Of a stretch of DNA of 25,427 bases, positions 1,074-25,427 are shown piece after piece; positions within the stretch are counted from its first letter, which is position 1; every line of letters starts with the position of its first letter. The stretch is from positions 1 through 25,427 of IMG/VR virus record IMGVR_UViG_3300008050_002961. One strand, 5' to 3'. The stretch comes from a virus. A model generated the notes under the pieces. The model was not told the origin of the DNA. It saw nothing but the letters and a program-made list of their open reading frames with translations, and searched no databases. The translations under genes and the position numbers were made by a program.

Positions 1074-1685
1074 TCAAGCATGTTCAAAAAAATACCCAAA
1101 CCTGTCTATGTCTACAGAGTGTGTGTTTTCGACTAGTTTGATCGTCTCGTTATCATAGTAATGAGAATAATGAAGGTGGGTACTTTGATTCATTGGCGAC
1201 AATTTAATATCCAGGTAACTTTCTATCTTATCAAGTTGTTCATATTTGAACCACACTACCCCTCCGGGGTGACGCTCGTTAACCCAATACATACATGGTT
1301 CAGTGGAAGTATCTTTGTAATCCTTTAAAAATTTATGAAACCCCTTGGTTATTACCTCTATGTTTAAATCGTTAGCCCATTTGCGGATCCCATCTTTATT
1401 ACTTAGTTCTTCCACAGACGACGGGCTGTCTATAATCTTCCACGTCCTTTGTATATAAAAACAAAACAGGGATAACATTCTTTCCCAAGGATTTCTTGAC
1501 ACAGCAATCAATTCATAATCATTAAATTCGTCAGGTAGTGATCTACTGTTCTGATGCCAAGATTCGTCTGGTTTTCTTATACTATCCCACCCCTGATTAG
1601 ATTCCATCAAAGCCCAATGAATTGACGTACACGCAGTTTTTGGAATGCGTATAAAAATCATCTTTTTGTCTCTATTTACTAACAT
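1074..1685 (-). CDS. PAPS-dependent sulfotransferase-like protein
   Basis: About 203 residues of the P-loop sulfotransferase superfamily (Sulfotransfer_2-like). The 5'-phosphosulfate loop is IPKTACTS (residues 14-21), matching the IPKTGGTS pattern. The 3'-phosphate-binding segment is SRNPWERM (63-70), matching RDPxxRLxS. Such enzymes move sulfate from PAPS to a sugar hydroxyl. I chose ATG 1685 because a GGAG site lies 4-5 bases upstream and the protein then begins with MLVNRDKK directly before the P-loop strand. The open frame extends to 1814, inside the preceding gene. The start overlaps the GT2 gene end by 14 bases, so the two are translationally coupled. With three glycosyltransferases nearby, the likely substrate is a glycan or a glycosylated product, but this is inference. 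Confidence 0.8.
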   Translation of the reverse strand: MLVNRDKKMIFIRIPKTACTSIHWALMESNQGWDSIRKPDESWHQNSRSLPDEFNDYELIAVSRNPWERMLSLFCFYIQRTWKIIDSPSSVEELSNKDGIRKWANDLNIEVITKGFHKFLKDYKDTSTEPCMYWVNERHPGGVVWFKYEQLDKIESYLDIKLSPMNQSTHLHYSHYYDNETIKLVENTHSVDIDRFGYFFEHA

Positions 1686-2433
1686 AGTACTCCAACATTT
1701 TTTTTCGTAATTGCTTGTGTTTTTCTTGGTCTCCATACCAAACTTTTCCCGAAAGGTTATGTTCACTGACACGATAAAAGACAATGATATCTGATAAATT
1801 CCTAATCTGAACACCTCTCATTGCGTTGATACTGTAGAAAATTAAATCGCCGTACACATTCCTATCGAGACCTGACTCGTCTTGAATTTTTCTTATCAAA
1901 CCGGCGTCAAACTCATCTACGACAGAGCGTCTCATGGCCGTTGAGGGGTTGTTTATAACCCACGATTTGGATAAAATGTACTGGTTTACATTGTAGGGAT
2001 GTGAAGTAACCCCTTCACAATCCGGAGCGTTCATATCAATGAATGGTGATGTTCGATCAACAAACCTTTGTATTTGACCTCCTACTATTCCTATGTCTTT
2101 ATTTGTGTCTAAGAAAGCAATCTGTTTCTCTATTCTGTTGGGCGTCATTATATCGTCGCCATCCATAAACACCAGAAACTCACAATCTTTGTCTAAAAAT
2201 TTTTTCGCAAAAAGTCTAGCTGAGTCACACCCAAGGTTTTGCTCCGTCCTGACCAGTTGAATATTTTGACTAACAATTGATTCAAGAAATTTAATTGTCT
2301 CTAAGTTGATACTGCAATCATCTACAATAATAAGTTTCCAATGTTTATAAGTTTGGCTTTGAATACTCTGGATCGCCTCTTTTAACCAAAGAACATTCGT
2401 ATTGTGTACTGGCATAGCAATATTCACAATCAT
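1672..2433 (-). CDS. Family 2 glycosyltransferase
   Basis: 253 residues with a GT-A fold pattern. It begins MIVNIAMPVHN, has VDD at residues 37-39 for nucleotide binding and a DxD-type metal site DGDD at 91-94. It should transfer a sugar from a nucleotide-sugar donor, making a glycosidic bond with inversion. ATG 2433 is preferred: it overlaps the previous stop as ATGA (2430-2433). A GTG five codons upstream (2448) is the alternative. It lies between a two-domain glycosyltransferase and a sulfotransferase in one co-directional run, so these three probably act on the same glycan. The acceptor (virion, host envelope or modified base) is unknown. Confidence 0.88.
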   Translation of the reverse strand: MIVNIAMPVHNTNVLWLKEAIQSIQSQTYKHWKLIIVDDCSINLETIKFLESIVSQNIQLVRTEQNLGCDSARLFAKKFLDKDCEFLVFMDGDDIMTPNRIEKQIAFLDTNKDIGIVGGQIQRFVDRTSPFIDMNAPDCEGVTSHPYNVNQYILSKSWVINNPSTAMRRSVVDEFDAGLIRKIQDESGLDRNVYGDLIFYSINAMRGVQIRNLSDIIVFYRVSEHNLSGKVWYGDQEKHKQLRKKMLEYYVSK

Positions 2434-4400
2434 AATATCTTGTTCCACTCTACTTTGAAATTTTCAATAGAAAAATTTTCTCGAATGTAGTCTCTATTTT
2501 TTGCTTCTTTTGTTGTCTCCTCGCACGACCTTATCGCTTTGGCCCACTCTGTTGCGTGAGATTTATATCTTACAATGGAGTCAGAAAACATACCTACGCC
2601 AACGGGGTGAGAAACTGTTGGTATACCATGTGCAATACCTTCCGCTACGGATAAACCGAAAGATTCGTCATAAGATGTAGATAAAGATAAAGAGCACGTT
2701 TTGAATAATTGTGAAACATCTTCTACGTGCCCGTAATAGAACACATTTTGTATACTGTCACTTAAAATCCTATGGTTGACCAAATCTCTTGCTTCTTGAT
2801 CGAAGTATTGCTCTAACCAACTACCAGCTATATGGAAATTAAAATCTGGTAAACAGTTAATAATATCGGCAAGGACTTGGACACCCTTATATTTCTCTAT
2901 CCTATGATGCCACAGGATATTTTTTGGGACCGGCCTTCTTTTTAATTCTTTATCGAAGAATACTGGTGGAGGTATACATATACCGTTATAATGTTTTGCA
3001 ACAGTCTTGTCCACAAACACACTAACGTCTGGTTTGAGAATATCAATTAATATATCGTGCAGTCGGTTATGTCTAAATCCAGAGTGAGATACGTATATTA
3101 TCTTCTTATTGAGTGGATTATCTCTCATGAACATTGGCAATGATTCATTTAAATAGTATGCCCAATAGATGATAATATCAGATTTTACATAAACTTCTTC
3201 CATTTCTTCTTCAGAATAACCAGTCGTCATACCCGTTTCAAGGTTATGGAACTGGGGAGGGTTCGCCAGTGGTACTATACCAGTAATATCATCACTAAAA
3301 CATTGTGCAAAAAGTTTCATCCACGTAAGGGCACCTCCGGGGGCTATTTCACCTTGAATTAGACCTATTTTGTTTGATTTAAAAGTGTTCGACTTTAGAT
3401 TATTTAAATCGCTTGGTTGCCAGATCGGCTCTATATTTTGGTAAGAGTTTTCATACCTTTGAGGCTCTATTGGACAAAAATCCCCTAAAGATATTTGTGA
3501 CAGAACGGCCTCTCTAGTTTCTTGGTCCCTCAAAGAATTTACATGTATAAAATAAGCCTCTGAGGAATTGTACCAGAAACCATCTTCACAAGTGAATAGA
3601 CAGTTCCACTTGAAGTCAAGTGGGTTAAAAACATCTTCGCCATAAACTAAAAGGGTCAAATAATTCTGGTCAAAGCACCACTGCTTAGGATATGTATCTG
3701 TGGGCTGTTGGTAGTATTTTGCACAAGACTTTGGTATAACCAAAACGCCCCCATTAATCATTACCTTGGGGTAAATTGTTCTACCATTATCTAAAAATTT
3801 TTCTGCCTGCTTGTCTGTTAGAGTCTTTCTTATTATTATGTCCTGCTCTCGTTCAATCCAACTGTAATCTTTTTGCGACCAGATGCGATATTCATCAAAG
3901 CCAGATATTTTATCATCTGGTGTTATCTCAAAGATATTTGGTGCTTTATCAGATACAAGTATATCACAATCTAAATACAATGTTTTTTCGTATATAGAAG
4001 TTACTTGTCTTACTCTATACTTGTTAGCCATAGGCCAATCTGGATGTTGATCTCCAGTTAGCTCTATGTAATCTGCACCGCATTCTTGTGCGTATTCTTT
4101 GATTCTCTGACGTGTTACTCTGAGTAGTTTCCTGGCTGCCTCGTTAGCTGGAATGACGCATATAGCTAATGTACTTTTGGGTTCTGGAATATCATCATAA
4201 AAATCAATAGTGCTAACTCTATGTTCCGACGTACTCAAACTAAGCACACCCCTACTCTTAGATGGTCGTAGATATTTTTCCCTCTCTGCTTGAGATGTAT
4301 CTTGGCACCACTTCCAGTTAGGCGGTATTACACCCATCTCTTTTTTAAAGACCTTACACCAACCCGGACTAGAGCATTGACACTTGGACAAATCATTCAT
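2430..4400 (-). CDS. Two-domain glycosyltransferase (GT8-like plus GT4)
   Basis: 656 residues in three parts. Residues 1-35 carry Cys7, Cys9, Cys15 and Cys32 with CSSPGWC spacing, a possible small zinc-binding module. Residues about 75-330 resemble a GT-A, GT8-like enzyme: TLAICVIPANEAARKLL, then YLDCDILVS with a DxD at 144-146. From about residue 335 the pattern is GT-B, GT4: an IGLIQGEIAPGGA start, the strand ILWHHRIEKYKGV, and near the end SYDESFGLSVAEG with the acidic pair that binds the donor nucleotide. The fused enzymes could add two sugars in sequence. ATG 4400 has AAGGTGA upstream; 72 bases separate it from the nuclease gene. Domain limits are approximate. Confidence 0.85.
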   Translation of the reverse strand: MNDLSKCQCSSPGWCKVFKKEMGVIPPNWKWCQDTSQAEREKYLRPSKSRGVLSLSTSEHRVSTIDFYDDIPEPKSTLAICVIPANEAARKLLRVTRQRIKEYAQECGADYIELTGDQHPDWPMANKYRVRQVTSIYEKTLYLDCDILVSDKAPNIFEITPDDKISGFDEYRIWSQKDYSWIEREQDIIIRKTLTDKQAEKFLDNGRTIYPKVMINGGVLVIPKSCAKYYQQPTDTYPKQWCFDQNYLTLLVYGEDVFNPLDFKWNCLFTCEDGFWYNSSEAYFIHVNSLRDQETREAVLSQISLGDFCPIEPQRYENSYQNIEPIWQPSDLNNLKSNTFKSNKIGLIQGEIAPGGALTWMKLFAQCFSDDITGIVPLANPPQFHNLETGMTTGYSEEEMEEVYVKSDIIIYWAYYLNESLPMFMRDNPLNKKIIYVSHSGFRHNRLHDILIDILKPDVSVFVDKTVAKHYNGICIPPPVFFDKELKRRPVPKNILWHHRIEKYKGVQVLADIINCLPDFNFHIAGSWLEQYFDQEARDLVNHRILSDSIQNVFYYGHVEDVSQLFKTCSLSLSTSYDESFGLSVAEGIAHGIPTVSHPVGVGMFSDSIVRYKSHATEWAKAIRSCEETTKEAKNRDYIRENFSIENFKVEWNKIL

Positions 4401-21064: not shown

Positions 21065-21476
21065 GTGTTTTTCCTTTACTTGTAATAGTTTGTTCAATCT
21101 CTGCTCTGACTTCGCCGAAGTCGAACATTCTTCCAATCCCAACAAAAAACCTATATCTACTACAGATTTTTAAAACTTCCACGCCGCTAGTTTCGCTCAG
21201 TGTGTCCCTTATCTCCTCCGTTATGCTGAAGTTGGTGTGTCCCATCCAGCAGTTAAAATTTGATGCTATAGAGATATTCTCCATTAGCCGCTCGTTAATA
21301 GGAATGAGCAGTTGGTCCTCTTTCCTATCTTGTTCATCCTGATAAGGCACGCCTTCTTCTTCAGAGTCTTCTACCGCTCCCTCTTGTCTGTGTAACATGT
21401 CTAACAGTGGAGACTCAAGCTGACTTTGTAGTAAATCTTCGTATTTTTGCCAACCCACTTTGTTATTTGTTTTCAT
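21033..21476 (-). CDS. Unknown protein upstream of sigma factor
   Basis: 147 residues. The N-terminal 55 are acidic and probably disordered; the C-terminal half (SNFNCWMGHTNFSITEEI, then VEVLKICSRYRFFVGIGRMF) looks like a compact folded domain. No family recognised. AAGGG precedes ATG 21476. The 3' end overlaps the sigma gene start by 32 bases, so translation is probably coupled; a role as partner or anti-sigma is possible but unsupported beyond position. Confidence 0.68.
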   Translation of the reverse strand: MKTNNKVGWQKYEDLLQSQLESPLLDMLHRQEGAVEDSEEEGVPYQDEQDRKEDQLLIPINERLMENISIASNFNCWMGHTNFSITEEIRDTLSETSGVEVLKICSRYRFFVGIGRMFDFGEVRAEIEQTITSKGKTHEQENPEVPE

Positions 21477-21486
21477 GGTAGTGCCC

Positions 21487-21975
21487 TTAAAAAAGGTCTG
21501 TAGGTTTAATTACTGGAGTATCTCCAGATTTCCTTTTTGTTAAGCCTTCCTCTTCTCCCTGTATGTATTGACCGCCATCCTCAAGGATAGTCGATTTAAG
21601 TATGACTGATTTGACAAATGTACTGAATTCATCCAATTTTGAGTCTCTTTCGAAATTCGTTTGCAGGATCTGCATAGACTGTACCTGAAAAGCCGTCGTT
21701 GGAATAGAGGCGATTAGTAGGGCGAACTTCTCCATAGTTTCTGGAGAGTAGTCATCCATCCCGACGTCTATGACTATCTCACCATCCTCATCCACGCTGT
21801 AGCAGACGCACGCAGGACGACCCTTATTCCCAAAGGACTCCTTCGACGATTTTGTCTGCGGTGTTTCTCCAAGTGAATTCGCTGGCGGTGGAGATCCCGG
21901 CTTCTGAGATTTCCCCCTTGTAATTAGCTGCAAAGGCCAGCATAGCGTCCGAAAGATCTCGTATAGTATTTTCAT
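21487..21975 (-). CDS. Unknown protein with unresolved start
   Basis: Up to 162 residues. The part from about residue 52 (GRPACVCYSVDEDGEI, then VIDVGMDDYSPETMEKFALL) looks like a genuine conserved domain. The frame upstream of it overlaps the GT4 gene by about 150 bases and looks less protein-like. Starts in this frame are ATG 21975, TTG 22002 and GTG 21795. The GTG would cut into the apparent domain. An AAGGAG sits near 21840, yet no ATG, GTG or TTG follows it at the right distance. I give ATG 21975 as the least bad choice. Function unknown. Confidence 0.55.
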   Translation of the reverse strand: MKILYEIFRTLCWPLQLITRGKSQKPGSPPPANSLGETPQTKSSKESFGNKGRPACVCYSVDEDGEIVIDVGMDDYSPETMEKFALLIASIPTTAFQVQSMQILQTNFERDSKLDEFSTFVKSVILKSTILEDGGQYIQGEEEGLTKRKSGDTPVIKPTDLF

Positions 21976-22903
21976 CAATTTTTGCCCATTTTCCTTGTCC
22001 AAAGAACCACTTGTTGTCGTAAGCCGGTTCGGTGTTCTCGATGTTTATAGCTGTACAGTTATCAGCATTGCAAAACTCTGTATGAGCAGAATAGTCGGTG
22101 GCAATTACGTGTCTACCTACTGACATCATCTCCAGTAGCTCCAGATTCCAACCTTCTCCACGAGAAGGAAAGACTCCACAGTCCGCTTCCGCCATCATAT
22201 TATACACACCTCCCTGTGTCTCAGCCCTCGGAATAAGTTTTACTCCGGGGTGAGAGTACAGAGATTCCCACCTCTCATCCTCCCCAGTAGTGTTGAATGG
22301 GTTGTGGCACATCATTCTTAGCTCGATATTGGGATTCTGCTCGTAGGCCAACCTGAAGGCTCGAATCAGGATATCGTGCCCTTTACGCACCTCCCATTTC
22401 CCACAGTTAAAGAAAACCGTCTTATTTTTAGGGTGTTGCTGAGTCATTGACGGGTTAGTGGGTAAAAAGATAGATGTGTCTACACCCAGAGGTACTACGT
22501 GAATGTTATTACCCAGTCCATGATACTGAATAACACCCTTGGCCCACTCTGAGCATACCATCAGTTCATCGCAGGACCGCATTTGATGTAATTCCTGCTT
22601 CGTGAAGGTGTCTAGCTCGAAGATAGGGAACCCTATGTGTTTTCCGCGACCAACGTGTTGGGCTAGGTCAAACTGGTGCCACAGACGCACTGAGGCGGCT
22701 TCTGGGTTGTACCCGTTTTTGGCTAGGTCAAGAGATCTCTGTACTATCGTATGGTCTTCTTGACAGGAAACGCTAATGCTCTCAGGGCCAGAGATAGGAT
22801 ACAGGGATACTTCAACACCACGATTCCAAAGTGCCTTGAGGATATTGAGACAAGTAATCCCATATCCCAATTGATTAATCGGTCCCGTTAAATTTAATTG
22901 CAT
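21824..22903 (-). CDS. Family 4 (GT-B) glycosyltransferase
   Basis: 359 residues. It begins with the GT-B strand and glycine loop NLTGPINQLGYGI, has HVVPLGVDTSIF in the linker, the second Rossmann start FFNCGKWEVRKGHD and the donor-site helix SRGEGWNLELLEMMSVG, where the acidic residues hold the nucleotide ribose. It should transfer a sugar with retention from a nucleotide-sugar donor. It stands alone, far from the 1074-4400 glycan cluster, behind its own promoter at 22930-22959. GAGGA lies about 9 bases before ATG 22903. Acceptor unknown; virion or host surface are both possible. Confidence 0.88.
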   Translation of the reverse strand: MQLNLTGPINQLGYGITCLNILKALWNRGVEVSLYPISGPESISVSCQEDHTIVQRSLDLAKNGYNPEAASVRLWHQFDLAQHVGRGKHIGFPIFELDTFTKQELHQMRSCDELMVCSEWAKGVIQYHGLGNNIHVVPLGVDTSIFLPTNPSMTQQHPKNKTVFFNCGKWEVRKGHDILIRAFRLAYEQNPNIELRMMCHNPFNTTGEDERWESLYSHPGVKLIPRAETQGGVYNMMAEADCGVFPSRGEGWNLELLEMMSVGRHVIATDYSAHTEFCNADNCTAINIENTEPAYDNKWFFGQGKWAKIDENTIRDLSDAMLAFAANYKGEISEAGISTASEFTWRNTADKIVEGVLWE

Positions 22904-25047: not shown

Positions 25048-25321
25048 TGGAGGCGGCGGAAGTCGAATCCGCGTGTTGTATAGGTTTCAAAATCAACAGT
25101 TTTTACATGTTTAGTGCCTAAGGCACGGTTCTTGCTGTTAGCGATAGTTCCCGAAGGATCTCTCTATGGTTGGGTGATGAGGCCCATAGAAGCCTCACAG
25201 CCTACGCTGCAAGTGCAAAAGAGTTTACAGTTATCGTTTGGTGTGGTTTTTAGCTAGCCCCCACGCCACCTAGCACATGTTGTTGAAGTCTCCGTCTACC
25301 AATCAATTCCAGTACGCCCCC
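25048..25321 (-). ncRNA. ssrA: Transfer-messenger RNA (tmRNA)
   Basis: 274 bases, one piece, rescuing stalled ribosomes and tagging proteins for degradation. The 5' end GGGGGCG (25321-25315) pairs with CGCCTCC (25055-25049), including the G3-U70 wobble and discriminator A73 that alanyl-tRNA synthetase needs. The T arm is GCGGATTCGACTTCCGC. The 5' side has the D-analogue TACTGGAATTGATTGG and a segment (TTCAACAACATG) that pairs with TGTTGA/TTGAA on the 3' side as helix P2. The tag frame (25249-25202) reads KPHQTITVNSFALAA and TAG, with the usual ALAA end. H-type pseudoknots follow (GAGGC/GCCTC interlocked with TCTATGG/CCATAGA). CCA is not encoded. The resume codon is AAA or CCA, not the common GCN. 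Confidence 0.9.
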
Positions 25322-25331
25322 GTACTACTTA

Positions 25332-25345
25332 GTCCGCAAGCGGAC
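25332..25345. other. Hairpin between tRNA-like gene and tmRNA
   Basis: Perfect 6-pair inverted repeat GTCCGC-AA-GCGGAC in the 26-base spacer. There is no T run, so it is probably a processing signal in a joint precursor rather than a terminator. Confidence 0.5.
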
Positions 25346-25347
25346 AG

Positions 25348-25427
25348 TGTGATTGACAGGAGTCGAACCTGCATAAACCGACCTGACACCCAATTTATGG
25401 GAAATAATACGAGAGTCAGGGTGAGTC
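25348..25427 (-). tRNA. 3' part of a tRNA-like gene, identity unknown
   Basis: Minus strand T arm GCAGGTTCGACTCCTGT (25372-25356) is followed by a 3' acceptor strand CAATCAC (25355-25349) and discriminator A; no CCA. The matching 5' acceptor GTGATTG is not in the window, so the gene runs past the right edge and exceeds 80 bases, longer than a class I tRNA. I could not fold a convincing anticodon arm: CCCATAAATTGGG and CCTGA/TCAGG are competing inverted repeats. It could be a class II tRNA, an intron-bearing tRNA or a decayed one. Confidence 0.45.

Follow-up and report, generated by a model that had tools for sequence, protein, structure and literature searches.

Whether the end of a virus contig carries a genuine tmRNA gene, and at which codon translation would resume on its RNA, is the question raised by positions 25048–25321 of the window, the whole analysed stretch (a linear virus record, 25,427 nt long). 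The minus strand of the window carries phage genes coding for an exonuclease, dNMP kinase, primase, DnaB-like helicase, UvsX-like recombinase, PhoH, and SSB, while a sulfotransferase gene and several glycosyltransferase genes are found at 1074–4400 and 21824–22903. Among sequenced phages the only nucleotide match is a chance one of 24 nt, and sequenced plasmids gave no match. The covariance model of the standard bacterial tmRNA, RF00023, matches the minus strand from 25321 to 25048 over its entire length (model positions 1–374) with a score of 50.4 bits (E 2.7e-17), only just above the gathering cut-off of 47 bits, and ARAGORN run on the window did not call the gene. A sequence-only reading of this DNA, silent on the strand, had proposed a tmRNA here and an Infernal search as its check, and the match above the gathering score bears the proposal out. 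The virus contig carries a real, mostly ordinary tmRNA gene, in one piece and about 274–277 nt long (274 nt to the discriminator base), supported by the whole-model match and by covariation in relatives. Its layout is the standard 5'-to-3' one, not that of RF04321, the permuted tmRNA model, in which the 3' half comes first; a search of two records carrying near-copies of the gene (G001 and G002) with RF04321 gave no match.

All parts of the gene are encoded on the minus strand of the window. The acceptor stem is formed by GGGGGCG (25315–25321) paired with CGCCUCC (25049–25055) and is followed by the discriminator A (25048) and AUU, CCA not being encoded. Its third pair, G3–U70, is G–U in all five aligned sequences, and pairs 4 to 6 are changed on both sides. 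The T arm, GCGGA-UUCGACU-UCCGC (25056–25072), is defined by the RF00023 alignment and by the five-row alignment described below. Helix 2, situated in the place of the anticodon arm, comprises six pairs in which 100% of the cells are paired in the five sequences and two are changed on both sides; the two strands of helix 2a, both ACAUGU, lie at 25275–25280 and 25105–25110. Pseudoknot 1 (25240–25274) consists of the stems GCUAG/CUAGC and GGCGUGG/CCACACC, the latter formed by RNA positions 55–61 and 76–82, with one C–A mismatch and four pairs changed on both sides among relatives. The stop codon of the tag frame, UAG (25202–25204), lies in the loop GUAG of helix 5, CUUGCAGC/GCUGUGAG (25194–25213), which is predicted by the minimum free energy fold and shares bases of its outer pairs with the first stem of pseudoknot 2. 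Pseudoknot 2 (25163–25196) comprises GAGGC/GCCUC and UCUAUGG/CCAUAGA; its second stem is 100% paired in the five sequences, and both sides have changed in five of its seven pairs. Where the distal pseudoknots would be, the fold gives a hairpin, GUGCC-UUA-GGCAC (25114–25126), and a hairpin of a different sequence occupies this place in a distant relative (L083). Only pseudoknots 1 and 2 are supported, against the usual four, a number that is variable and not obligatory, and beyond them only hairpins are recognised. The acceptor with G3–U70, T arm, pseudoknot 1, and the tag frame ending in FALAA-UAG, all listed in the sequence-only reading, are seen in the sequence.

The proposed structure, 46 pairs in total, was followed in an alignment of five sequences: the window, G001 (L086), G002 (L085), and G039/G040 (L083/L084). 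In these, 95.6% of the pair cells hold, compared with at most 46.4% when the structure is slid by one to three columns, and 17 pairs are changed on both sides, although, since G001 and G002 carry near-copies of the window gene, the test rests mainly on two lineages. The G001 tmRNA differs from that of the window by a single base in the linker of pseudoknot 2, and in G002 the second stem of this pseudoknot, UCUAUGG/CCAUAGA, is replaced by UCUGUGA/UCACAGA through paired changes. The tmRNAs of G039 and G040 are far more distant, with the acceptor GGGCCGG/CCGGUCC, in which G3–U70 is retained. Covariation is found in the second stems of pseudoknots 2 and 1, in helix 2, in the T stem, and in the acceptor. 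Chance is excluded for this structure, and the tmRNA structure is under selection.

Pseudoknot 1 is followed by AAACGAUAACU and then by GUA AAC UCU UUU GCA CUU GCA GCG UAG. The G of GUA, at RNA position 94, is the twelfth base past pseudoknot 1, which ends at position 82, and the A at position 90, belonging to the putative pre-resume element UAACU (RNA 89–93; 25229–25233), is located four bases before it. The same A at −4 (A86 to G90) and the same distance of 12 nt between pseudoknot 1 and the resume codon are found in E. coli tmRNA (PMC2481249). UAACU is overlapped by AUAA (25231–25234), one of the two preferred tetramers (PMC4236655). In the same alignment columns L083 has UAACU-GCA-AAA-UCU-UUU-GCU-GUA-GCU-GCA-UAA. 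The spacing, the AUAA tetramer, and the alignments to RF00023 and L083 place the predicted resume point at the usual position, assigned by homology, on GUA coding for Val (25226–25228), and define the tag frame VNSFALAA (25205–25228), so that the earlier claim of a phage-encoded tmRNA with a tag ending in FALAA is supported. The window shares the predicted resume codon GUA (Val) with G001 and G002, and G039 and G040 have GCA (Ala) instead. The usual Ala or Gly codon is therefore absent from the window tmRNA; it is not, however, a defining trait, as other residues are on record, a 2005 survey listing Ala, Gly, Asp, Arg, Ser, and Glu, with no Val (PMC1168896). In the loci analysed here, Val opens 3 of the 61 distinct tags read by ARAGORN, whose choice of the tag start is heuristic; one of the three is VEENFALAA of a permuted relative from the same phage group. 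Val is thus uncommon but not unique here, and another phage of the group also appears to use a Val resume codon.

The locus is very probably a phage-borne one-piece tmRNA gene serving the rescue of stalled ribosomes with the Val-resumed tag VNSFALAA. By analogy with tmRNA biology, its transcript would be processed by host enzymes, with addition of CCA, and charged with alanine by the host AlaRS owing to the G3–U70 pair of the acceptor. Together with the host SmpB it would enter ribosomes stalled on broken mRNAs; translation would resume at GUA, and the stalled protein would gain Ala followed by VNSFALAA, an LAA-type degron, and would be degraded by host proteases. A profile search for SmpB in 15 related virus records, which are fragments, gave no match, and since CCA is not encoded either, the host would have to supply both. 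The benefit is probably the maintenance of ribosome cycling in the course of infection, a time of heavy mRNA degradation; the phage may gain from ribosome recycling or from degradation of host proteins, and the sequence does not choose between the two.

Three other explanations of the locus were weighed. The sequence-only reading had placed the resume point at Lys or Pro, directly after the in-frame TAA preceding AAA-CCA, and had taken UAGCU for a pre-resume element one to two bases out of register. The TAA is indeed present (RNA 70–72; 25250–25252), and the frame behind it is open to the UAG, which would give a longer tag of ca. 15 residues. Nevertheless, AAACCA is part of the covarying stem of pseudoknot 1, while UAGCU (RNA 66–70) consists of one extra base and the 3' strand of this pseudoknot's first stem. 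The alignments to RF00023 and to L083, which has GCA at the homologous position, put the resume codon at least 18 nt later, behind UAACU in its canonical spacing. The ribosome does not restart within pseudoknot 1, which holds both the TAA and AAACCA and precedes the resume point; the claim of an unusual Lys or Pro resume codon therefore fails, and such a start is highly improbable. Even less credible, to the point of being negligible, is a misassembly joining host sequence to a phage contig, a worry voiced in the same reading and fed by the location of the gene near the contig end in the window. The same tmRNA gene is found in the interior of two other contigs, at 57263–57539 of 63,943 nt and at 21318–21594 of 26,037 nt, next to the same phage neighbours, SSB, w24274, and w24614. 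From w24614 through w24274, SSB, w22969, and on, the neighbouring genes are syntenic and nearby 84–100% identical. The interior copies refute an assembly join.

A decaying tmRNA or a decoy that would bind the host SmpB or AlaRS but do no tagging, a role suggested for the form of phage DS6A reduced to the tRNA-like domain, deserves somewhat more attention, since a decoy-like phage form is on record (PMC4131195) and several traits of the window gene speak against a working tmRNA: the weak score barely above the cut-off, the lack of an ARAGORN call, the C–A mismatch in pseudoknot 1, and only two clear pseudoknots, the distal ones being reduced. It is still unlikely, because the tag frame, the pre-resume A, the stop codon in the helix 5 loop, and pseudoknot 2 have been kept under compensatory change, and a decoy would not need them.

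The window tmRNA shares with the standard bacterial tmRNA (RF00023, e.g., E. coli ssrA) the tRNA-like domain with G3–U70, the T arm, helix 2, pseudoknot 1, the A at −4, the LAA-ending tag, the stop codon in the helix 5 loop, and pseudoknot 2. It differs in the predicted Val (GUA) resume codon in place of Ala or Gly, in CCA not being encoded, in being phage-borne, and in that pseudoknots 3 and 4 are not recognisable. Phage tmRNAs have been published for mycobacteriophages Bxz1, Wildcat, and others, and for Bacillus phage G (PMC4131195); they have been found in 402 of 18,146 phage genomes (PMC9004378), and 79 phage sequences are present in the 2025 tmRNA database (PMC11915505). As in the published cases, the gene resides in a phage genome, here beside several tRNA genes; unlike them, the window tmRNA belongs to an uncultured group and has no recognisable nucleotide similarity to those of the phage collection. 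Permuted phage tmRNAs, that of Melnitz among them, are also known (PMC9004378), and in comparison with these (RF04321/RF01849) the sister phages of the window have permuted genes with similar halves, whereas the window gene is in one piece. As phage tmRNAs of both forms have already been published, the window gene joins a known kind, to which it adds a divergent tmRNA with a predicted valine resume codon, missed by standard software.

A search with the DnaB helicase gave 80 viral contigs at 66–100% identity. A tmRNA of either form was found in 17 of the 50 related records searched: the one-piece form scored above the cut-off in five and the permuted form in 11, the twelfth permuted record, G012, scoring 39.3 bits in the 50-record search and 52.2 bits, above the cut-off, in a smaller one. 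The permuted gene is located ca. 0.5–1 kb upstream of w24274 and SSB in G003, G004, G005, and G013, and the same slot is taken by the one-piece gene in the window and in G001 and G002; in G039, G048, G020, and G032 the tmRNA gene is located elsewhere. The permuted genes of the sister phages, several of them in the slot of the window gene, are those at L122 (1070–1311), L121, L112, L113, L114, and others. In G004 the permuted gene follows immediately on the stop of an upstream frame ending in KDSFTKLF(K/E); in G001 this frame stops 310 nt short of the one-piece gene. A pattern for permuted tmRNA matched 83 viral stretches (L135–L214), many of which read as permuted genes with short intervening segments, while some are other tRNAs or chance matches.

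The DnaB tree places the window together with L002 and L003, all with the one-piece form, as sister (support 100/100) to a clade in which L004 is the only member with a tmRNA found, a permuted one. At least three changes of form are needed on this tree if the tmRNA gene was inherited vertically; the same pattern would result from exchange between phages. The halves of the one-piece and permuted RNAs of the group are more like each other than like the tmRNAs of E. coli, SAR202, or other phages, and in a tree of 186 RNA columns both forms group together apart from these (99.4/89). An alternative with a single clade per form falls short by only 0.57 log units, and given this difference and the shortness of the RNA the tree neither counts nor orients the changes of form. 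It is tentatively proposed, as a possibility rather than the favoured course of events, that a permuted two-piece phage gene gave rise in situ to the one-piece gene now found in the window lineage, i.e., by reversal, with repeated and recent switches of layout. Tandem duplication followed by loss of the outer halves is one conceivable route. Permuted tmRNAs have come to light chiefly in three bacterial clades, with a re-permuted gene noted in the mitochondrion of a jakobid (PMC11915505). If a layout switch within the group holds, it would offer close pairs of one-piece and two-piece genes for direct study of permutation or its reversal.

As regards the host, the bin of the SAR202 MAG VFHP01 holds two phage contigs of the group, L127/L258 (C7) and L257/L259 (C13), one with a permuted and the other with a one-piece tmRNA, and the MAG has an SmpB gene beside its own tmRNA. 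This hints at a Chloroflexota host for the phage group, the binning of virus contigs being weak evidence.

Upstream of the tmRNA gene, on the same strand, lies the 3' part of a tRNA-like cloverleaf (25348–25427) cut by the contig end, a neighbour and not a part of the tmRNA. It is complete in L086, where the tmRNA is preceded by 310 nt (minus strand 2087–1778) whose end is represented by 25322–25427 of the window. Between G001 and G002, about 286 of these 310 nt show 96% conservation, and the DNA just outside is not conserved. In L086 the element forms a 109-nt cloverleaf with the acceptor GUGAUUG/CAAUCAC, a T arm, and a long extended arm replacing the anticodon arm; ARAGORN did not call it, and it has no match in Rfam. 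A putative promoter, perfectly sigma-70-like (TTGACA-17-TATAAT), is found on the minus strand of L086 at about 2207–2178, ca. 400 nt upstream of the tmRNA, and similar TATAAT boxes precede other genes of the phage group.
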